From a virus: 55,417 nucleotides of DNA. The stretch lies in the IMG/VR virus record IMGVR_UViG_3300025674_000052, positions 1-55,417 of that record; one strand, given 5' to 3'. Positions 150 through 38,451 of this stretch are shown piece after piece. The position numbers were made by a program, and so were the translations under genes. Position 1 is the stretch's first letter. The number at the start of each line of letters is the position of its first letter. The notes under the pieces are model-generated. The model searched no databases and was not told where the DNA came from. It worked only from the letters and a program-made list of their open reading frames with translations.

Positions 150-2257
150 AGTTCTGGGTTGTAGGTCTGCGCGGAAAACACCTCGACCAGCTCAAACGAG
201 GCGTTGTAGCCGTAGTCGGCCTCGCCGTTCTCGGCAAACGACATCGTATCGTCACCGAACAAGACGGTGTGCGCCTCGCCGGTGTAGGGGTGCGTCCAGG
301 AGAACGGCGTGTGGCCCCCGTTCGCGGACAGCAGGGCGGTGAGGGCCTCCCACTGCTCGCGCTCCATGACGGCGCTGACCTGCCACACGCGGCGACCTAT
401 GGCTTGGTTCGCGATGGTCTGCTCCTTCCCACCCTCGAACGTGTGCCGCCAGTAGCCGGCCTTGACGGTCTCCCGCACAGTCGCGTCCAGGGGGATCGTC
501 AGCGACCCGGAGGCCGTGTCCGCCTCAGCGCTCACAGGGACCGACGCCTGCTCGTCAGGGCGGATGACAGGCGGATCTGTGAGGGTCAGGGCCTGGAACG
601 CGCCTGCTGCGACGAGCGGGCCGCCGGTACTCTGGGCGTCGACGGTCAGGAAGATGCCCGACGCGCCCCTGGTTCCCGTTGCGGCGCTCCTAGTGTCAAC
701 GAGGTAGCCGTCCTGCTCTTGGATGCCCGCAAGGTTCTCCGGCGTCGGCGTAATCTGGACGCTATCAACCTTCACGATGAGCGCCACGAAGGTGCCCTGC
801 CCGAACTGGTCTCCGTCGAAGTTCCGGGTCTCGACATCAAGGGTGAACGCTGTGCCGATGCTGAGCCCAGCAGTAGTCAGGTCCGCCGTTGCGAGCACCT
901 GCCCCTCGTAGGCGATGCTCGTTGCGGGCTCGAAGTGTCGGATCTCCAGAGACCAGACCGGCGAGGCTGATGCGTCATAGAGCACTGACACAGCGTAGCC
1001 GGTCTTGTTGCGACCGTTGATCTGGCTGGAACTTGGGCGAGTGCCAGAGCAATCGAAGATGCCTGTCGTGCCCTGCTCGCGGATGGTCAGGCGCGACAGG
1101 ATCCCCATGCGGGTGCGCGTGCTCAGGTCTTGATTCAGACGCACGAGGGTCGCCTGATATCGCTGCTCTGTGCCTGAGGGAGGGATCTGGTGAATGTGGA
1201 AACCGGGCCGCCCTGTTCCGCTGTTTGACCCCGTGTTCTGCTCGCCAGCGACTACGCGGTCAGCGGTAGCTGTGTCCCGTCGAAGCTGGCAGCGGATGAC
1301 ATTTGAGGATCCAGTCTCGCCGTCGCCCGCCCACGCGGTGCCGATGCTGTGCCCGGTGAGGACGCCGCTTGATACGTCGCGGCCCAGGCGAGGCTGCGAC
1401 CTCTCGAACGTGTCCGCGAAGATCAGCTCCGTGTTGCCTGAGTCGCGGATGGTGAACAGGTTGCAGACGCCGACACAGTCGCAGCCCTCCGATGTGATCC
1501 TGCGGGTCTGAAGCCCGAAGCCGCAACGACCGTCCGCTAGGCCAGACAAGGTGAAGAAGCCCGTGCCGAAGAGCTGCCTCTCCACTCCTGTCAGGTCGGT
1601 TCGGTAAGCCCGAACGCGGCGCTGCACGCCGACTTCCTGCACGTTGAGGCGAAGGGCTCCAGGGCGGAAGAAGTCGAACGCATTCCCCTGAGCGTGGATC
1701 TCGTCCGTCTCTTGGACTTCTTCATCTCCAAGGACCGTGATGGCACCTGCAGCCAGACGAAGGAGTAGCACCCGGTGGCGCGTTGCTGTCTCCTTCTCTT
1801 CGATCAGGAACAGGCCACTGACGTCTTCGTAGTAGTCGCCGGGTCGGCCCAGCCCCGTGTTCGTGACGAGGGTGCCGCCGCTAACGTGCGAGCAGATGCC
1901 GAACTGCTTGAAGCTATCGAAGTCGGGCGTGCCGTTGATGGCGTACAGGGCTGGAGCAAACGAGACGTTGCTGTTGGCTCTCTCGTTCTGGCGCTCAACG
2001 AACCACGCGGCGTCTCCGTCTGCGCCGAAGCCTGCGCCCGAGAGGGGCTGCGGTATCGCTCCGCCGACGCCACTGGACTGCCCTAGGGCTTGCTGAAAGA
2101 TGTCCGTCAGCGCTCCGTTCGTGACTCGCAGGCTGTAACCCGTAGTGGTCTCCGGCTGAGTCGACCACGGCTGCACCTTGACGTACAGGTTCGGGTTGGG
2201 GCCGTAGGCGGTTGCGCCGTCTGCGAATAGTTCGTCGCCCCATGTCTGGTCAACCAC
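146..2257 (-). CDS. Minor tail protein, lambda gpM-like C-terminus with a large N-terminal adhesin-like extension
   Basis: 703 aa from GTG 2257, overlapping the tape-measure stop by 8 bp. The last ~95 residues resemble the lambda gpM class of tail-tip proteins (around residue 655: FSWTHPYTG; then a closing beta-rich stretch). The preceding ~600 residues are beta-rich with a motif FADTFERS near residue 277, of the kind that opens lectin-like beta-sandwich domains. Lambda gpM is only ~110 aa, so the extension is phage-specific and may bind host surface. Synteny (tape measure, M, small gene, L, K, I-J) supports the role. The M assignment rests on remote similarity and position. Confidence 0.7.
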   Translation of the reverse strand: MVDQTWGDELFADGATAYGPNPNLYVKVQPWSTQPETTTGYSLRVTNGALTDIFQQALGQSSGVGGAIPQPLSGAGFGADGDAAWFVERQNERANSNVSFAPALYAINGTPDFDSFKQFGICSHVSGGTLVTNTGLGRPGDYYEDVSGLFLIEEKETATRHRVLLLRLAAGAITVLGDEEVQETDEIHAQGNAFDFFRPGALRLNVQEVGVQRRVRAYRTDLTGVERQLFGTGFFTLSGLADGRCGFGLQTRRITSEGCDCVGVCNLFTIRDSGNTELIFADTFERSQPRLGRDVSSGVLTGHSIGTAWAGDGETGSSNVIRCQLRRDTATADRVVAGEQNTGSNSGTGRPGFHIHQIPPSGTEQRYQATLVRLNQDLSTRTRMGILSRLTIREQGTTGIFDCSGTRPSSSQINGRNKTGYAVSVLYDASASPVWSLEIRHFEPATSIAYEGQVLATADLTTAGLSIGTAFTLDVETRNFDGDQFGQGTFVALIVKVDSVQITPTPENLAGIQEQDGYLVDTRSAATGTRGASGIFLTVDAQSTGGPLVAAGAFQALTLTDPPVIRPDEQASVPVSAEADTASGSLTIPLDATVRETVKAGYWRHTFEGGKEQTIANQAIGRRVWQVSAVMEREQWEALTALLSANGGHTPFSWTHPYTGEAHTVLFGDDTMSFAENGEADYGYNASFELVEVFSAQTYNPEL

Positions 2258-4463
2258 GCCCCACCGCCTGGACCAGCTTGCGGTCCTGCCCGCTCAGGAT
2301 CGCGTTTGCAACTCCGCTGGTGATGGTCGGCAAGTTTGCCTGGATGACCTCAGCGGCGGTCTTCGGGTCCAGCGACGGCACTGTGATGTTCACGGTCACG
2401 CCTTGGCCTCCGCCTTCCATCTTGACTGGGATGTTCTTGCCGTCCGGCAGGGGGACGAACGCTTCCGCTCCTCGGCCCTCCCCGAAGATCGCCATCTGCG
2501 GGCTGTTGGCAATGCCTCCGTTCGCGTAGCCATTGATGGGCAGGCTGTTGCTCATCTGGCCCTGCATGACGCCGCCGTTGGCGAGGCCCTTGATGCTGTC
2601 TCCGAAGCCGAAGCCGCTGAAGAGGCCGCCGGCGCTGAAGCCAAGGCCGTCCCTCAGGGCTCGCAAGATGTAGAACTGCGCGATGATCGAGCCGATGGAC
2701 CGTGCCACTCCTCGCGCGAACTCCGAGAACGACGACTCGCCTGCGATAAGAGCGTCGGTCACATCCGCGAGCCCTCGCGTAATTGTTTGGAAGACCGCCT
2801 GGGTCGCTCCTCTTGCGAGGTTGAACTCCGACAGGCTCTCCCCGAACGCGGTGAACGCATCCTGGGCTCCGGCTGTAGCACTCGCGAACTTGATCTCTTG
2901 GGCTACCACGCTGGTGATCTTGTCGATGAACGCGCCTGCGAACTCTGTCGCTTTCGCAAAGGCGCCAGCGGTCTCTTCGATGCTCTTGTCGAGGGCGGTG
3001 AGGCTCTTCTTTGCCTGCGACACGGCTCGGTTCAGGGCCGCGTCAAGGGCTCCGCCGAACTCCGGCAGGCCAGGGATCAGCCTGTCGAGGTTGCTGTCCT
3101 TGATGAGCTTGCCGAAGGCTGTGCTGATGTTGTCGAACCCTTCCTTCAGCTTGGCCGTCTCGATGCCCGCCCTGGCAATCCCGATCCCGAAGTCCTTGAC
3201 GGCCTCAGCGTTCGCCTTGACGCCATCCGCCACAATCTCCAGAACGCTGCCTGTCTCCTTGAAGTTGGCGGCGAGGTTGCTCACCTCCGTCGACCCTGCC
3301 AGCGTGTTGAATGCGTTGATCAGAACGTCGAGGCCAACTGCGATGGTCCTGAAGTTCTTGGACGCCAACCGAGCGATGATCTCGAAGTTGTTCTTGGCCG
3401 TGCGGCCAAGGAACACGATGGTCTCCACGAGCACCTGGAAGGCACCGGAGAGGACGGCGACTGCGGTGCCCACTCGTTTCAGGGATCCCACCGTGCCGTC
3501 TGATCCGCCGAAGGAATCTGCGAGCTGACGCCCGGCCTTGATTAGGCTCACGACTGCGCGGATGAAGCCAGCGGTCACGAAGGATGCGGCAGTCGCGACG
3601 AATCGGTAGTCGTTCGTAACCTCGGCGGCTCCTCCTAGCTCAACGATTGCGCCCTTGATCTCCTTGATGAGGTTCTGGCCCAGTTCGATGCGGACGTCCT
3701 TTGTGGACTCTCTGAGGGCACGCAGGCTGTTGGCGTAGCTGTCGGAGGTCCTCTGGACGTCGCCTAGGTCTTTGTCGAAGGCTGCGTAGATGATCGACAG
3801 CCGGGCAACAATCTTGTCCTGCTGCGTCAGCTCCTTGGCTGTGTCAGCAAGGCCAAGCTCTAGCGCCTTCTGCTGAACAGCGGCCTCGCGGATGTCCGCG
3901 CCATACTTCAGCAGCGGCTCGCTCTGCCCAACGAGACCAGAACGGATATCGCGGAGAACGTCCTCGAACTTGACGTTCCTGAAAGACTCAACGTCCTGGC
4001 TCAGGCGAGTGATCTCGAACGAAAGGCCAGCCGCCTCTTCTGCGGAAAAGCCGAGAGGCAGGATTAGCGCCTGCAGGTCGGACGCTGCGTTCTGAAGCGT
4101 TGATTGGCTGCGGCCCAGATTGGTCGCCAGCAATTCAAGCTGCGCATTCGCCTCAGGCAGTTGCCCCGAGAACAGCTCCTCGAATTTCGATCGTGACTCT
4201 TCAACGTCACCTGCCAACTCTACGAAGCCGAAGCCGGCGGTCACGGCAGCGCGGATGCCACGGATTGCGGACTGGATGCCGACGAACGCTACCGCGACTG
4301 CTCCAAGACGCTTGGCGAGTTTGCCTGCGGCGGTGTCGACCTTGTTGAACGCCTCCTTGCCTCGCCGGCCACTCCGAGTCGCGTTCTGCTCGAACTCCTT
4401 CAGCTCCTTCGTGGCGAGGTCGCGGAGCCTCAGCTCCACTGTGATCTTGTTCTTGTCCGCCAC
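2250..4463 (-). CDS. Tail tape measure protein
   Basis: 737 aa. Start is GTG 4463, chosen because a perfect AGGAGG lies 5 bases upstream and the preceding G-T frame ends immediately before it. The protein is Ala-rich and helical, with an N-terminal coiled coil (about residues 1-50), hydrophobic segments near 52-82 and again around 585-620, and a Gly-rich tail. These are usual tape-measure traits. It sits directly after the tail-assembly chaperone pair and before the tail-tip genes, as in lambda gene H. It sets tail length by spanning the tube lumen before ejection. The length predicts a tail of roughly 100 nm by the common ~1.5 angstrom per residue rule. Confidence 0.9.
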   Translation of the reverse strand: MADKNKITVELRLRDLATKELKEFEQNATRSGRRGKEAFNKVDTAAGKLAKRLGAVAVAFVGIQSAIRGIRAAVTAGFGFVELAGDVEESRSKFEELFSGQLPEANAQLELLATNLGRSQSTLQNAASDLQALILPLGFSAEEAAGLSFEITRLSQDVESFRNVKFEDVLRDIRSGLVGQSEPLLKYGADIREAAVQQKALELGLADTAKELTQQDKIVARLSIIYAAFDKDLGDVQRTSDSYANSLRALRESTKDVRIELGQNLIKEIKGAIVELGGAAEVTNDYRFVATAASFVTAGFIRAVVSLIKAGRQLADSFGGSDGTVGSLKRVGTAVAVLSGAFQVLVETIVFLGRTAKNNFEIIARLASKNFRTIAVGLDVLINAFNTLAGSTEVSNLAANFKETGSVLEIVADGVKANAEAVKDFGIGIARAGIETAKLKEGFDNISTAFGKLIKDSNLDRLIPGLPEFGGALDAALNRAVSQAKKSLTALDKSIEETAGAFAKATEFAGAFIDKITSVVAQEIKFASATAGAQDAFTAFGESLSEFNLARGATQAVFQTITRGLADVTDALIAGESSFSEFARGVARSIGSIIAQFYILRALRDGLGFSAGGLFSGFGFGDSIKGLANGGVMQGQMSNSLPINGYANGGIANSPQMAIFGEGRGAEAFVPLPDGKNIPVKMEGGGQGVTVNITVPSLDPKTAAEVIQANLPTITSGVANAILSGQDRKLVQAVGRG

Positions 4464-18157: not shown

Positions 18158-18346
18158 TTTCTCGTCTACGTGCCTCCATGTCTTCCGAGTCACGACGTAA
18201 TGAATCGCCACATGGCTGACGCCGTACTTCTGCCCGAGGGCTGCTAGGGTCGCGCCCTGGGCGGCCTGCTTGCGGATCGCGCGGACACTCTGGGCCGTCA
18301 GGCGGGCCATGCCGTTCTTCTCGCCTTTGCGGTTCTCAAGTTTCAT
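18113..18346 (-). CDS. Small helix-turn-helix DNA-binding protein
   Basis: 77 aa, ATGA overlap with the cytosine methyltransferase. Residues ~15-60 form a typical resolvase/sigma-like HTH: LTAQSVRAIRKQA, then ALGQKYGVSHVAIHYVV and a closing TWRHV. This pattern is common in phage HTH domains that accompany homing or regulatory proteins. It may regulate neighbouring early promoters; copy 3 of the repeated element overlaps its 3' end. An alternative start is Met-13. Confidence 0.7.
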   Translation of the reverse strand: MKLENRKGEKNGMARLTAQSVRAIRKQAAQGATLAALGQKYGVSHVAIHYVVTRKTWRHVDEKSEKGLAETDSKAEG

Positions 18347-19239
18347 GCGGTCACCTCAATGTCCATGCGAGCTCTCACGAACGCCTCCGCTTGCGGAGCG
18401 CAGAGGGCGTTGCCGTAGGCGCGCAGGCGTCCCACTCGGGCGGCAATCCCATCAGCCAACGGGAAAGAGCCGGGTTCAATCGGACGCCATCGGGGACCGC
18501 TCGGGTCGTTACAGTAGACCCACTCCGCACAATCCCAGAACGTGCTACTCCCGCAGGTCCCGCCAGCCGAGACTTCTTCACTAGGTGCTCTAGGTCCAGA
18601 GCCTGTCCTGTGTCCTTGTGATCTCGCGCTGTCGGGGTCGGCCACGCAGCTCGACTTGCGGGAACCGCTAGGCGCGACTTGGACTGCTGGGTTTCTGGAT
18701 CGAAGTTGGTCCAGCTGTCCTTGTGATCTCGTGAACACGGCGTCGGCCACGAAATACAGTCGCTGCCGCCTGTGCGGAGCCCCGACGCCCGCAGCGCAGG
18801 TATCAAGGCCGCTGACGGTGTAGCCCTCTCGGTCCATGTCAGATTGAACAATGTCGAACCAGCCGAGGCCGTCCTTGCTTGAAACCTGCTCGCCAAAGAT
18901 CGTGCGCGGGCGTCGTGCTTGAGCGAGCCAAAGAACGGCAGGCCATGCGTGCCGCTCGTCAGCAAGCCCTGCTCCCTTGCCTGCGCTGCTGAAAGGCTGG
19001 CACGGACAGGAGGCGGTCCAGACAGGTCGGTCGTCGGGCCAGCCTGCGGATCGCAGGGCGTGGCTCCAGACTCCGATCCCTGCGAAGAAGTGGCATTGTG
19101 TGTATCCATCAAGTTCCTCAGGTGCGATGTCCCAGATTGAACGCTCGTCCACGACGCCGGGGGCGATGTTCCCCGCGTCGATCAGGTTCCGCAGCCACTG
19201 CGCTGCGAACGGGTCGATTTCGTTGTAAAAGGCGGCCAT
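18343..19239 (-). CDS. DNA (cytosine-5) methyltransferase
   Basis: 298 aa. Motif I FAGIGVWSHAL near residue 50, catalytic PCQPFS near 77, GEQV (replacing the usual ENV) near 117, GAPHRRQRLYFVAD near 160 and the C-terminal RLRAYGNAL motif. Together these define a C5 methyltransferase; it probably protects phage DNA from host restriction. The target-recognition part (about 185-235) is short and Ser/Arg-rich. A second open frame overlaps 18375-19112. The EQV variant occurs in phage members of this family and need not mean loss of function. Confidence 0.9.
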   Translation of the reverse strand: MAAFYNEIDPFAAQWLRNLIDAGNIAPGVVDERSIWDIAPEELDGYTQCHFFAGIGVWSHALRSAGWPDDRPVWTASCPCQPFSSAGKGAGLADERHAWPAVLWLAQARRPRTIFGEQVSSKDGLGWFDIVQSDMDREGYTVSGLDTCAAGVGAPHRRQRLYFVADAVFTRSQGQLDQLRSRNPAVQVAPSGSRKSSCVADPDSARSQGHRTGSGPRAPSEEVSAGGTCGSSTFWDCAEWVYCNDPSGPRWRPIEPGSFPLADGIAARVGRLRAYGNALCAPQAEAFVRARMDIEVTA

Positions 19240-19241
19240 CT

Positions 19242-19829
19242 TTACTCAGGCGCTGACAGCGCATGGATCACGCCGGTGTACCGTTCGAGGCGCTCGTGGT
19301 TTCTGCGGCCTTGGCTCAGCACGCTCCCCACGCGGTCCTGCGCGTCAAGGTGCGCGTCCTCCACCAAGGCAAGGTACTCGTCCGCCGACAGGTCGAGCAG
19401 GTTCTTGCCGCCCGACGAGTATCCGTCGATGGCTGCGTGATGCGCCACCTCTTCCTTCAGGCGGGCACAGGAGGCCGCTGTCGCGATCTCGACGAACATC
19501 ACCGCCTCGGCCTCGGTCCACTCCGCCGTGCGCTCCAGAAGCTCACAGCGGCTGATAAGCTGCGCTCGCAGCATCGTGACGACGTCGCGGCTCGCGCGGA
19601 GCGCCTCGCGCCGGATCATCGACTTCCTGCCCTTGCCTGTCTTGTTGCGCTCCAGGGCCGCCAGGAGCGTCTTGCGGACGTTCTCGGGGAGCCGTCCGTG
19701 GATGCCGTCGTCGTCGAGGTAGATCGCTCCTGCCCCATCCGTGTTGCCGTCCTTGGCGGACAGCAGCTCCTCAAGGATCTCGTCGAAGGATCGGGCCGGC
19801 TGGTCTTCTTGGTTCTCGTGCTCGCTCAT
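19242..19829 (-). CDS. Unknown helical protein upstream of the cytosine methyltransferase
   Basis: 195 aa, acidic N-terminus (about 1-50) followed by a long predominantly helical part. A stretch SSGGKNLLDLSADEYLALVEDA near residue 140 may form a small domain. ATGA overlap with the upstream gene and two-base spacing to the methyltransferase place it in one operon. No family recognised. Confidence 0.6.
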   Translation of the reverse strand: MSEHENQEDQPARSFDEILEELLSAKDGNTDGAGAIYLDDDGIHGRLPENVRKTLLAALERNKTGKGRKSMIRREALRASRDVVTMLRAQLISRCELLERTAEWTEAEAVMFVEIATAASCARLKEEVAHHAAIDGYSSGGKNLLDLSADEYLALVEDAHLDAQDRVGSVLSQGRRNHERLERYTGVIHALSAPE

Positions 19830-21398: not shown

Positions 21399-21402
21399 TT
21401 TT

Positions 21403-21470
21403 TGGAAAAGAGGCTTGCGGAATCCTGCGGGATTGCCGACAGTATGCGTGTCGAGGGAATCAGCCCTCGG
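21403..21470 (+). promoter_or_regulatory. Repeated promoter element with leader hairpin, copy 4 (rightward)
   Basis: TGGAAAAG box, CTTGCGG (-35 at 21415-21420), 17-bp spacer, -10 GACAGT at 21438-21443, then hairpin CGAGGG-AATCAG-CCCTCG at 21452-21469. It starts 5 bases after the lipoprotein stop and drives the small gene at 21504. The hairpin is identical to copies 1 and 2 although the strand is opposite. Confidence 0.75.
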
Positions 21471-21503
21471 CCTTCCCCCCCCCCCAGCCTCAGGAGGCTT
21501 CCC

Positions 21504-21794: not shown

Positions 21795-23591
21795 TCACCC
21801 GATCCGGCGGCCTCCCTTCAGTTTGGTCGGGCGCAGCCGCCCGTTCCGCACCGGCTGCCCACTGTGAGGCGTGAGCACCGGCGGACCCTCCTGCCGGATG
21901 ATGCTGTCCCGAGCCGGCAGGCGCATCGCCAGGATGTCGGCGTCGAACGTGTCAGGGCTGTGCCCGTGACGCTTCACGACCTTCTCCTTCGGCTCCAGCT
22001 TCAGCACCGGCCCCTTGCTGTCCCAGGACCGCTCGTACAGCGTCCAGGTCGCTTCGGACCAGCTGCGGGTGAACTGTCGCGGGATCACGAAGACGCCCTC
22101 CTGAAGGCCACGGCGGGCGACCCAGTGCATCTCCGTGCGCTGGTTTACGCATCGCTGAGTCCCGACGAGGTCGCGCCACTGGCCGCTCGCGCCTCGGGCG
22201 AAGTTCACTCGGTCGACGAGGCAGCCTCGGCTCGCGAGGATGTCGCACACGCCGACGAGCCCTGAGTCGTCAATGCTGATGCGGTCGCCTGGGATCGGGC
22301 TGCCGTCCCAGGTCGAGTTGCCAGGGCCGGTGCCCTCGACCTCAGATCCCCACTTCTCCGCCAGCGCGAGGATCGTCGTCGCGATGGTGATCTGGCCCTC
22401 GCGGTCATCCATACTCGGAGCGAATCGGTGCTCCTGGCGCTTCTCGCCGTCGACGAACAGCGAGGCCACGCACATATCTGGGTTCCCCGTGCCGATGTCC
22501 ACGCCCATCCTCGGGCCGATGGGCCGGAGGTTCTGACGTTTCGTCCCGAGGGCCGCCTCCAGGGCTGTCCTGGGCACCACGTTCCAATCGGTGCTGCCGC
22601 TCGGGAAGGTGCCTCCCCAGTCCGCCAGCAGGATCGGGTCGTCCTCGTCGTACTGCCTCAGGGCGGCCTCGATGTCGGTGGACTGCACGAGGTACTGCGG
22701 CACCGGATGGTAGACCGAGTCGTACACGACACCTGAGGGTGCCGGGAACTTGTCCGGGTCTAAGCTGCTGACTCGGATCCGGTGCCAGTGGCTGCCGTCG
22801 CGGAACGCTCGGACGTACTCGTGATCCTCGTCGGCACCGAGGGTCGGGTTGCCTGTCATCACAAAGTAGACGTTCGGCTTCGTCAGCATCCCGTCGAGGA
22901 CGCGGAACGCTTCGGTGCTGACGCCGGCGGCCTCGTCCACCACGACGAGTAGCCTCGTGCTGTCGTCGTCGCCCTGCTCCGCCAGCCACGCGAGGTCCTC
23001 CTCGGACATCGTATCGGCGTCGGGGTCGCCGGGCACTGCCGGGCTCGCGTGGAAGCCACGCATCGCGTCTGGGTCGCGGCTCGGCAGGGCAAGGCACCAG
23101 TGCCGCTCGTCGATGCGGATCTCGCTGGCGTTGTTCACCTCCAGCGGCAGCTCTGTCGTCGCGTTTGCGATGGCCGCCCTGGCCTCCCCGAGCACGCCCT
23201 TCTGCGCCTGCCGCATCGTCGGGCTGATGACGAGCACGCGGCTTGGCTCTTGGAAGAGGAAGGCGGCTACGAGATGCCCGAGAGCGTGCGTCTTGCCGGT
23301 GGATCGGCTAGAGGTCACGGCCACCCGCCGGCGGCGGTACACCGCGCGGATCAGGTCCCGCTGGAACCTCCACATCTGGAGGCCGCCTGTCCTCGGGTGC
23401 CGCAGGCCCAGCCTTTCACGCACGAAGCGCAGGCACCCGTCTCCAGGCTCATCGTCTTCAAGATCGCGATACTGTACACAGAAAGGGCCTGCCGTCGCGG
23501 CAGGGTCAGGTGTGGAGCTGCTAGTCCCGAGCCTCCTCCTGAGCTTCTCCACTGCCGCTGGTGAGACCCAGGGCTCCTCCGCAGACCTCAT
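21795..23591 (-). CDS. terL: Terminase large subunit
   Basis: 598 aa from ATG 23591, overlapping the small subunit gene by 71 bp; an upstream start at 23645 is less likely. ATPase: Walker A-like SRSTGKT near residues 95-103 and Walker B LLVVVDEAAG near 214. C-terminal RNase H-like nuclease: GVDIGTGNPD near 362 (first catalytic Asp), later acidic residues including ISIDDSG. It pumps DNA into the prohead with the portal and cuts concatemers. The packaging genes sit about 5.6 kb from the portal, separated by early genes and promoters, which is atypical. Confidence 0.92.
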   Translation of the reverse strand: MRSAEEPWVSPAAVEKLRRRLGTSSSTPDPAATAGPFCVQYRDLEDDEPGDGCLRFVRERLGLRHPRTGGLQMWRFQRDLIRAVYRRRRVAVTSSRSTGKTHALGHLVAAFLFQEPSRVLVISPTMRQAQKGVLGEARAAIANATTELPLEVNNASEIRIDERHWCLALPSRDPDAMRGFHASPAVPGDPDADTMSEEDLAWLAEQGDDDSTRLLVVVDEAAGVSTEAFRVLDGMLTKPNVYFVMTGNPTLGADEDHEYVRAFRDGSHWHRIRVSSLDPDKFPAPSGVVYDSVYHPVPQYLVQSTDIEAALRQYDEDDPILLADWGGTFPSGSTDWNVVPRTALEAALGTKRQNLRPIGPRMGVDIGTGNPDMCVASLFVDGEKRQEHRFAPSMDDREGQITIATTILALAEKWGSEVEGTGPGNSTWDGSPIPGDRISIDDSGLVGVCDILASRGCLVDRVNFARGASGQWRDLVGTQRCVNQRTEMHWVARRGLQEGVFVIPRQFTRSWSEATWTLYERSWDSKGPVLKLEPKEKVVKRHGHSPDTFDADILAMRLPARDSIIRQEGPPVLTPHSGQPVRNGRLRPTKLKGGRRIG

Positions 23592-24222
23592 GGTCCGTGC
23601 GCTCCAGAATCCGTCTCGCTGCATCTCTGTCCACCTCCGTCTCAATGATGTCCGCCATGCGGAACATGAGTGCCATGAACTCCTCAGGGCTGATCGCCCG
23701 AGCCGCGTGCATGGCCGTCTGCCAGTATCGGATCTGGCTCTTGTTGAGCTTGTCCGCTGCCTCGTGCATCCCGAGCAGCGCCCGGCTCTCCTCCACGCCT
23801 CGCTCGACGTAGCCGGTCAGCCGGCGAAGGATCGAGAGACCCTCCGCTGGGTCCTCCTTCATCTTCTCAAGGCCCTCGCGGAGCTGAGTCTTGACGCCCT
23901 GCCGGAACTCCGGGCTGTCGGCCTGCTCCACAAGATCCGCGAGCCGAGCCATCGTGGCCTCCTGCACCGCCATGCTGCGCCTTGGGTCAAGCAGCTTCGG
24001 GTCGTTCACTCGGTCGCTGAAGTCGTCGTCGAGCTTCTGGAGCGCCTTGGAGTAACGCCCAGTCTTGAAGTTCGGGGCCTGGAGCCCGCTGAGGCTCTTG
24101 CCACCGTGGTTGCGGCAGCGCCCGTTGGGCATGGCCTTGGCGTGGCAGATTCCGCCTGCGCGGTTCTTCGCTCCACAGATCCCGCCGGTGGGCGAGGACT
24201 CATCCTCTCCTCGCTTGTTCAT
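23521..24222 (-). CDS. Terminase small subunit
   Basis: 233 aa. The N-terminus has a Cys/His motif typical of small-terminase-type phage proteins: CGAKNRAGG, a further Cys, then GRCRNHGGKSLSG and a TGRYSKAL box (residues ~15-60). A long helical body follows with coiled-coil tendency (about 90-190). Directly upstream of and overlapping the large subunit. It would recognise the packaging site and form a ring that loads the large subunit. Coupled by ATGA to the upstream ParB-domain gene. Confidence 0.75.
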   Translation of the reverse strand: MNKRGEDESSPTGGICGAKNRAGGICHAKAMPNGRCRNHGGKSLSGLQAPNFKTGRYSKALQKLDDDFSDRVNDPKLLDPRRSMAVQEATMARLADLVEQADSPEFRQGVKTQLREGLEKMKEDPAEGLSILRRLTGYVERGVEESRALLGMHEAADKLNKSQIRYWQTAMHAARAISPEEFMALMFRMADIIETEVDRDAARRILERTDHEVCGGALGLTSGSGEAQEEARD

Positions 24223-24836
24223 AGGGCTCTGGGCCGGATGGCCGAAGCTCGGCCCAGGTCGCCATCCTTTACGAACTGGCGCACGGCCTCAGCGCCTTCC
24301 TCGGTGTGACACACTACCGTAGTGGCAAAACACTGCGCGGTCGAACCTGACAGCTCAGATTCGCCCTTGCCGCTGGTCTGCACGGTGCCCTCTGGGTCCT
24401 CACCATCGCCCTCCAGTGCCCTCCTGATGCCTTCCAGGTCCGCCTCGTCAAACCCCGTCGCCTCCAGCATCTCGGCTTCCTGAGCGGCGTCCAGGGCTCG
24501 AAGGAGCTGCGCGTCGTTCCAGTACGCCAGCTCTGCCGTGCGGTTGTCTGCCACAGCAAACGCTCGTGCCTGAGCCGGGGACAGGTCCGCGACTTGGCAC
24601 TCCAGGGCCTCCCATCCGAGCATCTTGGCAGCGTCGAGGGTCCCGTTGCCAGCGATGACGACTCCGCCCTCGGTGACGACGATGGGCTTCTGCTGACCGA
24701 AGGCATCGAGGCTCCGAGCGATGGCTTCGACGGCACGAGGCCCTCTGGCGCGAGCGTTGTCGGGGTCGTGGGTCAGGCGATGAACCGAGATGCGAGCAAG
24801 ACGCATCTGGCTGGGCTGGCTTGCTTCGCTGCTCAT
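24219..24836 (-). CDS. ParB/Srx-type nuclease-domain protein without methyltransferase domain
   Basis: 205 aa. Residues ~12-110 match the ParB N-terminal nuclease-like fold also seen in the two following (upstream-transcribed) genes: DPDNAR near 25, FGQQKPIVV near 46, a GNGTL motif near 63 and FAVADNRTAEL near 92. The methyltransferase half is absent; the C-terminal ~90 residues are acidic and unrecognised. ATGA overlaps tie it to both neighbours. It may be a shortened relative of the ParB-methyltransferase pair or a DNA-site selector acting with terminase; neither is proven. Confidence 0.75.
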   Translation of the reverse strand: MSSEASQPSQMRLARISVHRLTHDPDNARARGPRAVEAIARSLDAFGQQKPIVVTEGGVVIAGNGTLDAAKMLGWEALECQVADLSPAQARAFAVADNRTAELAYWNDAQLLRALDAAQEAEMLEATGFDEADLEGIRRALEGDGEDPEGTVQTSGKGESELSGSTAQCFATTVVCHTEEGAEAVRQFVKDGDLGRASAIRPRAL

Positions 24837-26053
24837 TGTTGGAGGACCGCCTTCTCTCCGGTGAGGTTCTCCCAGCGGCGAACGATCACATCGCAGTACG
24901 CAGGGCTCAGCTCCATGCCGTAGCAGGAACGGCCAAGCTGTTCGGCGGCGATCAAGGTCGTGCCTGATCCGAGGAAGAGGTCAAGGACAGAGCCTTCTGG
25001 GCCGGATCCGTGCTCGATGGCGTTAGCCACCAGCGCAACGGGCTTCATTGTTGGGTGCAGGTCGTTTTTGTTTGTTCGATCGAACTCCCAAACATCATCT
25101 TCTGAATACGGAGTGCCGAAGAAGTCACCAGAGAAGTTGCCATAAACGATGGGTTCATATCGGCGGCGATATGCTCCACCACCCATAGGCGACTGGTTTT
25201 TGACCCAAATGACAATCGACTTGTACCCGATTGAATCAGAGACAGGAGTTAGCAGTTCGTGCAAATTGCCGCTACTGAAAGAGATGTAGTATGCCCCAGA
25301 GCAGTGCTGCCGGATGGCTGAGGCGATGGATTGAATGAATGCTCGAAACTCCTCTGGTGTCTTTTTGTCGTTTTGCATGGCTGCGTGCAGGCCGTTGGCT
25401 CCAACGTGAGGGATAAGCTCCCCATCTTTGGTTGTGTTGCTCATCGTTCCCTGGAACGCAATGTTGTACGGCGGGTCCGTAAACACCATGTCGGCCTTGC
25501 CAGCATTCATCAAGCGACTCACGTCGGCCTCATTCGTTGAGTCCCCGCAGAGCAGCCGATGTCTTCCCAAGATCCAGAGGTCGCCCACCTTTGCGACAGG
25601 CTCCTCTACCGCGTTCGGTATATCGTCCTGGACCACTTCGCCGGTCTTCTGACCGCCCGCCGCCTTCTGAACCTCTGCCAACTCCTCCGCTGTGAAGCCG
25701 GTGTCCTCTAGGGGGACATCAGCCTCTTCCAAGGCCCGAAGCGTTGCCACCAGCACCTCGTCATCCCACTCGGCCAGCTCAGCGGTTCGGTTGTCCGCAA
25801 TAGCAAAGGCCGTCATCTCGTCGTCGCTGAGGTCGGACTCAACGACGGCCACTTCGGTCCAGCCGAGATTCTTCGCCGCCTCAAGCGTGCCGTTTCCTGC
25901 TCGGACCACACCTGAAGAGTCCACCACGATCGGCTTTTGCTGCCCAAACCTTCGCAGGCTGGCAGCGATGGCTTCGAGGTTGCGCGGCGAGTGCTTCCGA
26001 GCGTTGCTCGGGTCTGAGCGAAGCTCTCCTACTGATTTCTTCGTCGTCTTCAT
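24833..26053 (-). CDS. ParB-domain fused to beta-class DNA methyltransferase (second copy)
   Basis: 406 aa from ATG 26053 (ATGA overlap). N-terminal ParB-like domain (about 1-100: DPSNAR, FGQQKPIVV, GNGTL, FAIADNRTAEL), then an amino-methyltransferase with catalytic TDPPY near residue 191 before the AdoMet motif FLGSGTT near 360, the beta-class order (N6-adenine or N4-cytosine). The last ~45 residues are nearly identical to the neighbouring gene. The central part (about 25020-25500) is visibly richer in A+T than its surroundings, suggesting a swapped specificity region. Likely modifies phage DNA. Confidence 0.85.
   Translation of the reverse strand: MKTTKKSVGELRSDPSNARKHSPRNLEAIAASLRRFGQQKPIVVDSSGVVRAGNGTLEAAKNLGWTEVAVVESDLSDDEMTAFAIADNRTAELAEWDDEVLVATLRALEEADVPLEDTGFTAEELAEVQKAAGGQKTGEVVQDDIPNAVEEPVAKVGDLWILGRHRLLCGDSTNEADVSRLMNAGKADMVFTDPPYNIAFQGTMSNTTKDGELIPHVGANGLHAAMQNDKKTPEEFRAFIQSIASAIRQHCSGAYYISFSSGNLHELLTPVSDSIGYKSIVIWVKNQSPMGGGAYRRRYEPIVYGNFSGDFFGTPYSEDDVWEFDRTNKNDLHPTMKPVALVANAIEHGSGPEGSVLDLFLGSGTTLIAAEQLGRSCYGMELSPAYCDVIVRRWENLTGEKAVLQQ
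24841..24960. repeat. Direct repeat shared by two methyltransferase 3' ends (partner about 26060-26180)
   Basis: About 120 bases encoding the AdoMet-binding C-terminus are around 90 percent identical by eye to 26060-26180 in the upstream paralogue, in the same orientation. The intervening central regions of the two genes differ strongly. This is the footprint of tandem duplication followed by divergence or exchange of the middle. Confidence 0.8.
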
Positions 26054-27267
26054 GCCAACACGGCCTTCTCTCCGGTGAGGTTCTCCCAGCGGCGGACGAT
26101 CACATCGCAGTAGGCCGGGCTCAACTCCATGCCGTAGCAAGAGCGGCCCAGCTGTTCAGCGGCGATCAAGGTCGTGCCGGAGCCAAGGAACGGGTCATAC
26201 ACATCGCCTGAATGGTTCCGCATCAGGTTGCTCATGCAAGCCAGGGCCTTCTGCGTCGGGTGAGGCGTGCGCTCCTCTTTGGAGCCAGACATGATGTGGT
26301 TCGGAGGAGCCGCGTCGATCACAGTGGTCTGCTTGCGATCTCCGATCCAGTCGTGGGTCGCGCCCTTGCGGACACAATACCAGCACGGCTCATGCTTGAA
26401 GTGGTAACTGCTACGGCCAAGGATCAGCACGCTCTTGTTCCAGATGATCTGTTGGGTTGGGATCAAGTCTACCGCTCGTAGGCTGTCCATAACCACGTCG
26501 GTGAACGCAGATGCGTGCCAGACGTAGGCGATGTCACCTTTGAACAGGCCCCAGACGCCTCTCCAATCCGCGACATCGTCTGACTGAATAATGTCGCTGT
26601 TTGCCTTTCCAAGCGCCTTGTCGCCTAGTGCCTTGTCTCTCCAGGCTGGCCTGTAGTTCACGCCATACGGCGGATCGGTGACCATCATGTTTGGATTGTC
26701 GCCGTTCATGAGTCTCTCGACATCATCTGCCTTTGTCGAGTCTCCGCACAGAAGGCGGTGCTTACCAAGTAACCAGAGGTCGCCCACCTTCGTGATCGGC
26801 TCGTCCGGCGTCTCCGGCACCTCGTCCTCGACGACGTCGCCTGCCGATGCCACGCCTGCCGCTTTCTTGACCTCCGCAAGTTCCTCTGCCGTGAAGCCAG
26901 TGTCTTCCATCGGAACCTCAGCCTCCTCCAGTGCTTGGAGAGTTGCTGCGAGGACCTCTGCGTCCCACTCGGCCAGCTCCGCGCTGCGGTTGTCCGCAAT
27001 GGCAAAGGCGGTCATCTCGTCTCCTGAGAGGTCAGAGACGACCACGCTCAGCTCCTCCCACCCAAGGGACCGCGCAGCTTCGAGCGTGCCGTTCCCGGCT
27101 CGCACAACACCGGCAGAGTCCACGACGATGGGCTTCTGCTGCCCAAAGCGTTGCAGGCTGCGCCTGATGGCGTCGAGGTTTGCTTCTGAGTGGGTCCGCG
27201 CGTTGGCCGGGTCACAGGATAGGCTTGCCACATCCCGTCTTTCGACTCTGAGGCTGGTCGTGTTCAT
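26050..27267 (-). CDS. ParB-domain fused to beta-class DNA methyltransferase (first copy)
   Basis: 405 aa. ParB-like domain in residues ~5-100 (DPANAR, FGQQKPIVV, GNGTL, FAIADNRSAEL). A linker follows, then TDPPYGVNY near 197 and DPFLGSGTT near 360, a beta-class amino-methyltransferase. It differs from its paralogue mainly between these motifs, where the specificity determinants lie and where its DNA is also less GC-rich. It probably methylates a different sequence. The next gene downstream starts within its stop codon. Confidence 0.85.
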   Translation of the reverse strand: MNTTSLRVERRDVASLSCDPANARTHSEANLDAIRRSLQRFGQQKPIVVDSAGVVRAGNGTLEAARSLGWEELSVVVSDLSGDEMTAFAIADNRSAELAEWDAEVLAATLQALEEAEVPMEDTGFTAEELAEVKKAAGVASAGDVVEDEVPETPDEPITKVGDLWLLGKHRLLCGDSTKADDVERLMNGDNPNMMVTDPPYGVNYRPAWRDKALGDKALGKANSDIIQSDDVADWRGVWGLFKGDIAYVWHASAFTDVVMDSLRAVDLIPTQQIIWNKSVLILGRSSYHFKHEPCWYCVRKGATHDWIGDRKQTTVIDAAPPNHIMSGSKEERTPHPTQKALACMSNLMRNHSGDVYDPFLGSGTTLIAAEQLGRSCYGMELSPAYCDVIVRRWENLTGEKAVLA

Positions 27268-27276
27268 GCAAGGAGT

Positions 27277-27825
27277 CTAGCAACTGCTCGGCGGCGTAAG
27301 GCTGGCAAGCCGAGCCGTCGCAGCAATAAGCGCAGCATCCGCGAGCCCCCACCGAGCTTTCACCTGGAGGTCTGCCGTTAGCTCAGGCCACCGCTCGCCA
27401 GCGACGAGTGCGGCGCTCGCCTTGATCTGCTCGCGGCTGCCCTTGCGGTGCCCTCGGAGGAACGTGCGCTGCCAGTCCTTCGGGCTGATCTCGACCGTAG
27501 CGGCACCGATGGCTTCCGCGAAGTCAAAGCAGACCTGGAGGCTGCGCCCGAAGCTGAAGGCCGAGACCACTCCGTCGCTCGGAGCGGAGGAGACGCGCTC
27601 AATGGCGACGGTCACGGTCTCGTGCGGTGTCGCGGCGTCTCGGTATCTGATGCCCTCCTGGGTTGCCTCTAGCCAACGGAGGAGCAGGGCGAGGCTGGGT
27701 CGGGAGCGTTTCGTGCCCTTGCCCACCACCGGCATGAGGCTGTGCCCGACGAGCCGGCCACCCCTGTCGAGGATGACCAGCCCGCCGGTCTTGCCGGGGT
27801 CGATACCGATCCACAAGTCGGTCAC
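27277..27825 (-). CDS. RuvC-like Holliday junction resolvase
   Basis: 182 aa from GTG 27825 (GTGA overlap). RNase H-fold resolvase: first acidic residue in WIGIDPGKTGG (residues 5-15), Glu in VAIERVS near 74, and C-terminal WGLADAALIAATA near 161-173 supplying the last Asp. Spacing fits RuvC. It would cut branched replication or recombination intermediates before packaging. It sits between the beta-helix gene and the methyltransferases in one coupled operon. Confidence 0.85.
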   Translation of the reverse strand: MTDLWIGIDPGKTGGLVILDRGGRLVGHSLMPVVGKGTKRSRPSLALLLRWLEATQEGIRYRDAATPHETVTVAIERVSSAPSDGVVSAFSFGRSLQVCFDFAEAIGAATVEISPKDWQRTFLRGHRKGSREQIKASAALVAGERWPELTADLQVKARWGLADAALIAATARLASLTPPSSC

Positions 27826-29054
27826 CCGATCGGCTGGCCGGTGATGCCGTCGAACACAAGCTCTCCGCCGGGGCAGTCGATGTCGTGCTTGACGGACTGC
27901 TGCTGCCCCTGAGCGTTGGCGGCGAGCAGGATGTTCAGCCGAACGCCCTTGCTGCGGCAGTTGCGGAACACGATGCGCTTGGTCTTCGTGCCGTCCAGGT
28001 TGCCGTAGTCCTTGTCGACGCTGATGAAGGGCAAGTTGTGATCCCGAGCAATGAACGCACAGTCCTCGAAGACGACCTCGTCCACCGAGCGCAGCTCGGC
28101 TAGGGCGCGGTCGCCTGCCGTGAAGTCGAACAGGCAATTCTTCAGGAACACCTCCCGCATCATGTTCTGCCCTGCGAGCGGCTCGTTCCCCTGCGAGGGC
28201 GTGACGACGAGGCCGCCGGTGCTTCGCTTGCCTGACCGCTCTTCGTCCCACCGGCAGACGAAGCTGCTGTCCTCAATGGCAATCGAGCCGGGGAACTCTG
28301 AGGTGCCAGGGCTGAAGTACGTCAGGTTGAAGCTCGGTCGGGTGCCTCCATCGGCGCAGTCGACGAAGTGCGAGTCGAGCACAATGTGCTCTGGCTCCGC
28401 GTCGTACGGCATATTGTCGCCGTCGTACTGCTGGTAAGGCAGCGGTCGATATGCCCACTGCGCTCCCTGGCTCCCGACACGCAGGAAGGTGCAGCCATCG
28501 AGCCTTGTGTTGCCGCTGTTGGAGACGTACAGGCCGTGCTCCTGCGTGATCTCCGTGAAGTCGCAGTCGATGAACGAGCGGTCGGGAGTGTTGTACTCGC
28601 GGGTGCCCCACTTGAGCTGTCGCGCGTCTTCAGCGGCGGTCACGCCGATGTTCCGCCACTCGTAGCTGCCGCCTCGGCGCTTCAGCTCGCCTCGGTGCAT
28701 ATTGGAAGACCACTGGGCGTAGCCCTGCGGGACGAGCGACTCCTTGTTCTGCCACACGAGGTCTTCGCCGGTCTGCCAGTCGTTGGCGCGGATGTCCCCG
28801 AGGGTGCCGACGTCCTCACGCGCAGCGCGGCTCTCCCTGAGCGCCGGCAACCTGACCAGCTTGTTGGTCTCGACGTCGTTGTCGATGCAGTCAAGCGCCT
28901 TGAACTCTCCGGGCACCGGCTCGGGCGGGTCCGGCGGTTCGGGCGGGTCGGGCGGCTGCGGAGGGTCAGGCGGGTTGATCGCAGGGAGGATCGGTTTCGC
29001 GAGCGCGGCCTCGATGCGGGCCACCCTCCGGCTGAGGTCGTTGATGTTGCTCAT
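27822..29054 (-). CDS. Right-handed beta-helix protein with Pro-rich stalk
   Basis: 410 aa. Residues 1-20 are a short coiled coil (INDLSRRVARIEAALAK); 22-48 is a PPDPP/PPEPP linker; ~95-400 has repeated short strands with Asn/Asp turns (FIDCDFTEITQEHGLYVSNS, then VFEDCAFIARDH and IVFRNCRSKG), typical of a pectate-lyase-like parallel beta-helix. This looks like a trimeric virion spike or depolymerase, yet it lies inside the replication operon between a helicase and a resolvase. No catalytic residues were identified. Confidence 0.75.
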   Translation of the reverse strand: MSNINDLSRRVARIEAALAKPILPAINPPDPPQPPDPPEPPDPPEPVPGEFKALDCIDNDVETNKLVRLPALRESRAAREDVGTLGDIRANDWQTGEDLVWQNKESLVPQGYAQWSSNMHRGELKRRGGSYEWRNIGVTAAEDARQLKWGTREYNTPDRSFIDCDFTEITQEHGLYVSNSGNTRLDGCTFLRVGSQGAQWAYRPLPYQQYDGDNMPYDAEPEHIVLDSHFVDCADGGTRPSFNLTYFSPGTSEFPGSIAIEDSSFVCRWDEERSGKRSTGGLVVTPSQGNEPLAGQNMMREVFLKNCLFDFTAGDRALAELRSVDEVVFEDCAFIARDHNLPFISVDKDYGNLDGTKTKRIVFRNCRSKGVRLNILLAANAQGQQQSVKHDIDCPGGELVFDGITGQPIG

Positions 29055-37051: not shown

Positions 37052-37119
37052 CTTTTCGGAAAATACCCTTGCGAATGCCTCGCTGAGGTCCGATGGTTGT
37101 GTCAGTGCCGGTCACCGGC
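37052..37119 (+). promoter_or_regulatory. Repeated promoter element with leader hairpin, copy 6 (rightward)
   Basis: TTTTCGGAAAA box, CTTGCGA (-35 TTGCGA at 37069-37074), 17-bp spacer, -10 GATGGT at 37092-37097, then hairpin GCCGG-TCA-CCGGC at 37107-37119. The hairpin sequence differs from the other copies while its position is kept. It lies in the divergent gap and drives the AAA+ gene. Confidence 0.7.
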
Positions 37120-37161
37120 GCAGCAACAACAACACCGACCCTTAGCCAACGAGGTTCCACG

Positions 37162-38451
37162 ATGACTCCCTACACCTGCTTCTCTTCCTCTCACCAGGGC
37201 TGCGGCTCTGTCCACCGCACCCTCAAGGCCGCCTACGGATGCTGCAAGGTCGCAGAAACGCGATTCGGTGAGGTGCGCCAGCCGGTGCCCGTCGCCAGCC
37301 GTGCAGAGAAGGACGAGAAGTACCCGGCATCCGAGGCGGCTGCTGCTCGTTACGCCGAGTGGGCCGCGAAGAACGGCGTCAACACGAAGGGCAAGCCGAC
37401 TGCCTCCAGCGAAGCGCCTTCCGCCGAGCCCGCTCAGGAGCCCGAGCCCGCTGAGGCGGAGGCGGGTCCGGGCGCTCTCAACGGCGCGGACATCGCCGTT
37501 GCCGCTGCCGCTGCGGCTGCGACCGACGCCCACCCGCTCGCCGGCCTCGCGGAGCAGCTCCAGCCGCTCCTGGCTCCGCCGATCATCGAGGACGTCTGCG
37601 GCTCCGTCCAGACGATGCTCGACTCCGCGATGAAGCAGGTCGAGGTCAAGCCGAAGGTGATCGAGGTCGTCACGCCCGACGCTGAGCCGGTGCAGATCGA
37701 AGGCGACCAGCATGAGAATTTCGAGCTGCTCCTCAAGCTCGTCGGCGCTGGCGAGAACGTGTTCATGTCCGGCCCTGCCGGCTCGGGCAAGACGACCGGC
37801 GCGAAGAACGTCGCGGAGGCGCTCGGCTTGGACTTGATCGTCCAGCCGGTCGCCCTCGACAAGTTCGAGGCCACGGGCTTCGTCGACGCTGGCGGCAGCT
37901 ACCGCGAGTCGGCGGTGTACCGCTGGGCCACCTCCGAGAAGCCGGCGCTCCTCCTGCTCGACGAGGTGGACGGCTGGATGCCTCAGGCGCTCGTCGCCCT
38001 CAACCCGATCCTCGACAATTGCCTTGGCATCTTCCCTGGCGGTCAGCAGTTCGAGATCGACCCTCGCCACCGGGTCATCGCCACGGCGAACACCTGGGGC
38101 CTCGGTGCCGACGCCGAGTACGTCGGGCGGAACCGCCTCGACGCGGCCTCGCTCGATCGGTTCGGCGCTCGCATCGGCTGGGGCTACGACGAGAAGTTTG
38201 AGCGCAAGATGGTCAAGGCCAAGTTCGGCCACGAGATCGGAAAGGCCGCCGTGGACGCCTCCCTGCAGGTCCGCAAGCGCCTGAAGGACACCGGCACGAA
38301 GGTGCTCTGGGGGCCTCGCCAGACGCTCGGGCTGGCAGCCCGACTCGCGGCCAAGTTCACCCTCGCTGAGGCGTTCGAGGTTTCCGCCCTGGCTCAGCTT
38401 GCGGACGCCAACCGCAAGCGCATCCTCGAAGGTATCGCTGGCGCGAGCTGA
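37162..38451 (+). CDS. CobS/MoxR-type AAA+ ATPase
   Basis: 429 aa from ATG 37162. An upstream start at 37093 lies inside promoter copy 6 and is rejected. Residues 1-35 are Cys-rich (possible metal site); ~85-120 is an Ala/Glu/Pro linker. AAA+ core: Walker A GPAGSGKTT (204-212), Walker B LLLLDEVD near 264, sensor ATANTWGLG near 308, then YVGRNRLDAASLDRF, a signature of phage CobS-like ATPases. Bacterial CobS acts with CobT in cobalt chelation and MoxR with VWA proteins. Here it probably remodels a target chosen by the partner gene. Alone among the large enzymes it is rightward. Confidence 0.85.
   Translation: MTPYTCFSSSHQGCGSVHRTLKAAYGCCKVAETRFGEVRQPVPVASRAEKDEKYPASEAAAARYAEWAAKNGVNTKGKPTASSEAPSAEPAQEPEPAEAEAGPGALNGADIAVAAAAAAATDAHPLAGLAEQLQPLLAPPIIEDVCGSVQTMLDSAMKQVEVKPKVIEVVTPDAEPVQIEGDQHENFELLLKLVGAGENVFMSGPAGSGKTTGAKNVAEALGLDLIVQPVALDKFEATGFVDAGGSYRESAVYRWATSEKPALLLLDEVDGWMPQALVALNPILDNCLGIFPGGQQFEIDPRHRVIATANTWGLGADAEYVGRNRLDAASLDRFGARIGWGYDEKFERKMVKAKFGHEIGKAAVDASLQVRKRLKDTGTKVLWGPRQTLGLAARLAAKFTLAEAFEVSALAQLADANRKRILEGIAGAS

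Follow-up and report, generated by a model that had tools for sequence, protein, structure and literature searches.

Exchange of the central core between conserved ends in tandem ParB-fused DNA methyltransferase genes of a phage

Immediately ahead of its terminase genes, the virus record IMGVR_UViG_3300025674_000052 of IMG/VR (55,417 nucleotides, analyzed over its whole length and called the window below) carries a row of three genes that all begin with a ParB-like domain. The first two, g1 and g2, continue into a beta-class DNA methyltransferase, and the third, g3, stands alone. How did g1 and g2 come to be so alike at both ends and so unlike in between, and what could a phage gain from such an arrangement? 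We consider it likely that g1 and g2 are ParB-fused methyltransferases with a role in anti-restriction, probably acting on two sequence motifs, in which the core from motif IV (DPPY) to motif I, the S-adenosylmethionine (AdoMet) motif, is an exchangeable specificity cassette. The conserved stretches on either side of the core are called sockets here. The parts of the two genes are as follows.

26050..27267, minus strand: g1, ParB-fold domain plus beta-class DNA methyltransferase, 405 amino acids (PHROG 498, E = 3e-123; Pfam N6_N4_Mtase, 5.8e-15; structural model)
26938..27255, minus strand: g1 ParB-fold domain (5' socket), Box II reading GNGT (weak ParB_N Pfam match; profile match to solved Noc/Spo0J/ParB chains)
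26197..26676, minus strand: g1 exchangeable core, which runs from motif IV (DPPY) to motif I (does not align with g2 as DNA; another core in the related contig L005)
26050..26196, minus strand: g1 C-terminal socket, motif I to the end (90% DNA and 96% protein identity to g2)
24833..26053, minus strand: g2, ParB-fold domain plus beta-class DNA methyltransferase, 406 amino acids (PHROG 498, E = 2e-118; N6_N4_Mtase, 8.2e-27)
25700..26053, minus strand: g2 ParB-fold domain (5' socket; 73% protein identity to g1 across the domain)
24983..25477, minus strand: g2 exchangeable core, with low third-position GC of 0.588 (third-position composition; synonymous-codon comparison with the related phage L006)
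24833..24982, minus strand: g2 C-terminal socket (comparison with g1)

Matching ends and different cores

The initial annotation placed all three open reading frames correctly on the minus strand, and the signatures FGQQKPIVV, GNGTL, and ADNR occur in each. It had also proposed a shared ParB-like start for g1 and g2 and near-identical methyltransferase ends, and alignment confirmed both: the ParB regions are 73% identical as protein, and the last 47 columns are 96% identical as protein, whereas the DNA of this end agrees at approximately 90% of 138 bp and nearly all of the changes are synonymous. The cores, by comparison, are approximately 20% identical and give no DNA alignment, with divergence starting slightly ahead of DPPY.

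Guanine-plus-cytosine (GC) content falls from 0.60 to 0.64 at the ends to 0.575 in the g1 core and 0.521 in the g2 core, so the claim that the cores are less GC-rich holds for overall composition in both genes; at third codon positions it holds for g2 only (0.588 in its core versus 0.71 to 0.76 elsewhere). Third-position GC is 0.725 in the g1 core and 0.724 in the g1 ParB region, and because it does not change, the dip in the g1 core comes from amino acid use; GC was accordingly rejected as evidence of import for g1. The uniform composition that the initial annotation had named as counterevidence is thus a property of g1 at third positions, where it is outweighed by direct evidence of exchange.

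Core replacement between near-identical phages

This direct evidence comes from a second IMG/VR contig, L005, which matches the window at 98.7% identity over 4.8 kb and 98.9% over 1.5 kb. The counterpart of g1 in L005 (gene 1') keeps both g1 ends around a different core; g2, g3, and the terminase are retained as well. Read in order, gene 1' consists of approximately 130 nucleotides of ParB sequence 100% identical to g1, approximately 120 nucleotides that are nearly g2, the different core, and a C-terminal end that agrees with g1 almost perfectly; at the switch from g1 to g2 the two sequences have just about 9 bp in common, which is less than an assembler would ordinarily need to join them. The L005 copy of g2 is identical to that of the window except near its C-terminal end. 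Another contig, L004, does not differ from the window anywhere in g1, g2, and g3 (100% identity). In an intergenic region downstream of the terminase, approximately 300 bp of L005 (5697-6014) do not align with window positions 21400-21480.

A more distant relative, L006, has a single gene of this kind, orthologous to g2. Between the two, synonymous codons differ at 16 of 150 sites (10.7%) in the core and at 44 of 145 and 13 of 42 (approximately 30%) in the flanks (Fisher P = 9e-6). The reverse case thus occurs too: the cores of g2 and of its L006 orthologue separated recently, and both flanks are older.

Recurrence across phages

Relatives were gathered from IMG/VR and from GTDB genomes by conserved peptide patterns, so the frequencies given here are not population estimates. 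Trees of the ParB domain, the core, and the C-terminal end rejected one another in every cross-comparison (approximately unbiased test, P < 0.006). Of the 49 ParB splits with good support, 43 conflicted with well-supported core splits; when the ParB columns were divided into odd and even halves as a control, the figure was 4 of 30. The exchange idea, which congruent trees would have spoken against, is therefore not refuted.

Comparison of 175 unique genes from the gathered loci yielded 141 cross-locus pairs that share both ends as DNA; the cores give a full alignment in 102 of these, none in 38, and a partial one in 1. More than one core is present in eight end-sharing groups, in one of which eight genes have six core types, and the window with L005 and the related phages L310 and L320 bring the number of groups to ten. 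The 5' breakpoints fall from 7 codons before to 10 codons after DPPY, and the 3' breakpoints mostly lie 0 to 1 codon from motif I (FxGSGT), with a few at -21, +4 to +5, and +10 codons. When whole loci are aligned, at roughly 85 to 97% identity, the core is the main interruption: L026 and L036 match at 95.5% over 1.7 kb and 96.9% over 6.8 kb with the core between, and L107 and L123 match at 94% over 4.4 and 2.9 kb, again interrupted by the core. The converse also occurs: of 515 pairs with a core identity of 80% or more, 136 have a ParB DNA identity that is lower by 15 points or more; in L024 and L087, the cores are 91% identical and the ParB domains 38%. The proposed import or shuffling of the central part is thus borne out by the allelic swap in L005, by the incongruent trees, and by recurrent core-only replacement in other phage groups. 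It appears that phages change the sequences at which DNA is marked through the swap of a segment of approximately 400 to 500 bases.

Tandem copies

Full-length copies stand side by side at 23 loci, mostly in alphaproteobacterial prophages whose genome assemblies include isolates, and the cores differ in all 23 pairs (19 to 26% identity). The alignments thus document tandem copies with different cores as well as recurrent core replacement between conserved ends and its breakpoints. Partners have ParB domains more alike than those of different loci (0.71 versus 0.55; permutation P = 0.0005). ParB-half DNA identity within pairs reaches 98% over 546 bp in L210, 91% over 400 bp in L250, and 87% over 544 bp in L061, which makes it plain that in these three the ParB half underwent gene conversion or was recently duplicated. 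Homogenization of the ParB domain is not general, in that in most pairs the closest ParB is not that of the partner. A supposed tandem pair in Streptococcus phage Javan492, labeled "(x2)," is apparently a single gene that the annotation divided and was set aside.

For g1 and g2 themselves, the duplication suggested in the initial annotation is weakly supported: their ParB domains are nearest to each other in the tree, with a support of just 0.33, and a recent duplication within this genome was not established.

Predicted proteins and the ParB domain

Both g1 and g2 match PHROG 498 over their full lengths and have the beta-class order, with motif IV (DPPY) before motif I (FxGxG); family-wide, 182 of 223 members have TDPPY, with FxGSGT downstream. 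In a structural model of g1 (mean predicted local distance difference test score, 77.5), the methyltransferase half resembles M1.HpyAVI, M.BceJIV, and CcrM, and the N-terminal domain resembles Noc/ParB; the sequence profile of g1 agrees on both sets of relatives. We conclude that g1 and g2 are phage-encoded DNA methyltransferases with a predicted N6-methyladenine (m6A) or N4-methylcytosine (m4C) activity.

A survey of ParB-CTPase-fold fusions found those with N6_N4_Mtase to be enriched in phages, and in the homologs tested, loss of the arginine in the Box II motif GxxR abolished nucleotide binding (PMC12704722). Box II reads GNGT in g1, g2, and g3, without this arginine; among family members, the position is T in 64 of 223 and R in 152 of 223. 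Since tested nucleotide binders need GxxR, a nucleotide switch is unlikely in the three proteins unless another residue replaces the arginine.

The third gene and the slot ahead of the terminase

The genes that surround and follow g1 and g2 are listed below.

27277..27900, minus strand: RuvC-like Holliday junction resolvase, the next gene upstream of g1 (PHROG 1770, 1.3e-22)
24219..24836, minus strand: g3, stand-alone ParB-like protein, 205 amino acids (PHROG 620, a family of stand-alone ParBs, E = 1.5e-37; in a clade with stand-alone ParBs of L291, support 0.979)
23521..24222, minus strand: likely terminase small subunit (TerS) of the HGGxSTG zinc-finger type (NCBIfam HGG_STG, 9e-9, above cutoff; before the large subunit gene; role inferred)
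21795..23645, minus strand: terminase large subunit (TerL) (PHROG 2, terminase large subunit, 1.7e-23)

Stop/start overlaps of 4 bp join g1, g2, g3, and the likely TerS gene (26050-26053, 24833-24836, and 24219-24222). The direct coupling of g3 to the terminase genes was therefore correctly noted, and the arrangement is already part of the published ParB-Tls locus type, described for Paracoccus phages with reference to earlier work, in which modification genes sit directly upstream of the terminase (PMC6536676). The window has this layout, with ParB-like and modification genes overlapping in the order g1-g2-g3-TerS-TerL.

The suggestion that g3 had lost its methyltransferase is unsupported as a local event. 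In the tree, g3 falls closest to a pair of stand-alone ParBs from L291 (support 0.979), which precede terminase genes whose subunits are 93% and 88% identical to those of the window; g3 is sister to neither g1 nor g2, and its 63 C-terminal amino acids matched no methyltransferase family. On this grouping and the lack of a methyltransferase remnant, we reject g3 as a truncated copy of the fusion.

In L291, the two ParBs share the slot with a Tet_JBP oxygenase (8.9e-11) and with a TET-associated glycosyltransferase (2.2e-8), two enzymes at 1448-3060 that take the place of methyltransferases; both matches are above the Pfam cutoffs. The L291 sequence starts a short way ahead of its first ParB. 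L310 and L320 (91 to 93% identity) each have a stand-alone ParB followed by two ParB-less methyltransferases, and the four enzymes have similar C-terminal ends (85 to 94%) and different cores. Taken together, these contents indicate that the slot takes different DNA-modification enzymes behind ParB proteins. L078 (202-2519) likewise has a separate ParB gene and then two ParB-less methyltransferase genes, so that one ParB apparently serves two enzymes. A precedent for three consecutive ParBs is found in Microbacterium phage Hendrix (L289, 1-2007), where three genes annotated as ParB-like precede the terminase large subunit region with no methyltransferase fusion.

Elsewhere in the window, a further DNA methyltransferase gene (18346-19245, minus strand; PHROG 363, 3.9e-77) has similar genes in L005 and L006 and, beside g1 and g2, gives the phage at least three methyltransferases. 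An ATPase-like gene (37093-38448, plus strand) matches PHROG 249, "porphyrin biosynthesis" (4.8e-49).

A model for core exchange

In the model that we favor, g1 and g2 would be made from one overlapping operon running into the terminase genes and would probably methylate phage DNA at two motifs before packaging, thereby protecting it from restriction by the host. The stretch between motifs IV and I, which includes the target-recognition region, would be the cassette that sets specificity, as is standard for beta-class enzymes and as the variable block of modA dictates specificity (PMC3311624). The ParB half and the last 45 to 50 codons would serve as sockets at which homologous recombination imports cores from other phages and the two neighboring copies exchange sequence. 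The ParB domain may guide or tether the modifier to DNA or to a packaging site, the least certain step. The changed specificity, the anti-restriction benefit, the recombination at the sockets, and the guiding role are inferences.

Several points weigh against this model. Gene 1' of L005 is cut by the end of its contig, and its exact core was found in no second contig in a search of viral contigs. The alphaproteobacterial tandem pairs share ancestry, and 23 pairs are not 23 independent events. The two distinct specificities of g1 and g2 are predictions, and the cores hold catalytic motifs besides the recognition region, so that a swap could alter more than specificity. Finally, with no Box II arginine, the ParB domains of the window may have no nucleotide switch.

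The mosaic pattern could have other origins. Whole genes might have been imported separately from different phages, with ends alike through strong constraint on the protein: the C-terminal end, which spans AdoMet motif I, is conserved throughout the family, and C-terminal ends with cores of the same class average 65% protein identity. Yet in several phage pairs the ends match as DNA, at 90 to 97% over kilobases past the gene, and break at the core, and the synonymous divergence of g2 from L006 is unequal between core and flanks; we find this account improbable. More doubtful still is that the variants with different cores are chimeras of metagenome assembly. L005 does start within gene 1', and shared ends could draw false joins, but its g1-like and g2-like parts have only about 9 bp in common at their switch, the same pattern occurs in ten phage groups, most with long flanks on both sides, and the tandem form is also present in alphaproteobacterial prophages of genome assemblies, isolates among them. 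Hardest to credit is divergence of the cores where they stand, with rapid evolution or positive selection acting on duplicated genes instead of replacement. Cores of one broad class do retain the order of motifs and some similarity; against this, core similarity is all or none (one intermediate pair among the 141), the breakpoints are sharp, and the same core lies beside very different ParB domains, as in L024 and L087.

A different purpose, rather than a different origin, has a better claim, although we still judge it unlikely: the methyltransferases may act mainly in packaging or gene expression, with ParB guiding the terminase-proximal marking of mature DNA and anti-restriction secondary. 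The position before the terminase is fixed in the ParB-Tls locus type, and ParB-like proteins are proposed to direct modification to packaging sites (PMC6536676); in the window, the stand-alone ParB g3 overlaps the small terminase gene. Such a role predicts constant specificity, but cores vary among phages that are nearly identical and have a terminase in common, and the oxygenase and glycosyltransferase fill the slot of L291. Anti-restriction through exchangeable cores is the reading that we retain.

Relation to known systems

Much of this is already known: the locus layout (PMC6536676), the fusion (PMC12704722), the variability of methyltransferases in near-identical phages (PMC7468147), and the block exchange of modA (PMC3311624). 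ParB-Tls loci, like the window, have ParB-fused m6A/m4C methyltransferase genes directly before the terminase, and ParB-like proteins also accompany other DNA-modification genes; the available text reports diversity at the level of genes, and a description of core replacement between motifs IV and I or of tandem pairs with matching ends was not found in it (PMC6536676). The PHROG 498 fusions and the ParB-CTPase-fold fusions surveyed in PMC12704722 have the domain architecture of g1 and g2, but in Box II the window has GNGT in place of GxxR.

A close parallel to the exchange is modA of the type III systems of Neisseria and Haemophilus, in which ends with DPPY and FxGxG are conserved and the middle recognition block moves en bloc by recombination in the flanks (PMC3311624). 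The window genes have the same conserved DPPY and FxGxG ends and a middle replaced en bloc. Unlike modA, which belongs to bacterial restriction-modification, shows phase variation, and has no ParB, the window enzymes are orphan, phage-encoded, and sometimes tandem. No res-like gene appeared among the window proteins scanned, a part of the total, in a scan not aimed at res; the repeat scan of the window left out repeats with units of 1 to 3 bases.

Near-identical cryoconite phages swap variants of flexible gene modules at fixed places, including beside the terminase, and methyltransferases are the most frequent genes of known function among these variants (PMC7468147). Those are whole-gene variants, insertions, and deletions, whereas the unit in the window is smaller and bounded by catalytic motifs. 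The ParB-methyltransferase of Wolbachia phage WO and the ParB-methylase Bce_0392 of B. cereus are fusions of the same kind as g1 and g2. The ParB domain of Bce_0392 is reported to nick DNA nonspecifically, as cited in PMC5512222, but the biochemistry of these proteins is not transferable to g1 and g2 without a test. Targeted literature searches, of partial coverage, found no description of exchange between motifs IV and I in phage ParB-methyltransferases, which is not proof of priority.

Implications

The odds seem to us even that phages in general use the ParB-methyltransferase locus as a platform on which DNA modification is changed, in which fixed ParB-type sockets receive cores, or whole enzymes such as the TET-like oxygenase and glycosyltransferase are swapped beside the terminase, while tandem copies hold two cores and act as recombination partners whose ends are homogenized by gene conversion.

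Phages face a major barrier in restriction, and the way in which they track the changing specificities of their hosts has mostly been inferred from the gain and loss of whole genes. Here, the exchanged unit appears to be a block of 400 to 500 bp between two catalytic motifs, and phages that are otherwise nearly identical offer many natural variants of it. Such matched natural sets could be used to find the methyltransferase residues that set specificity and to ask whether core turnover tracks the restriction systems of the hosts.

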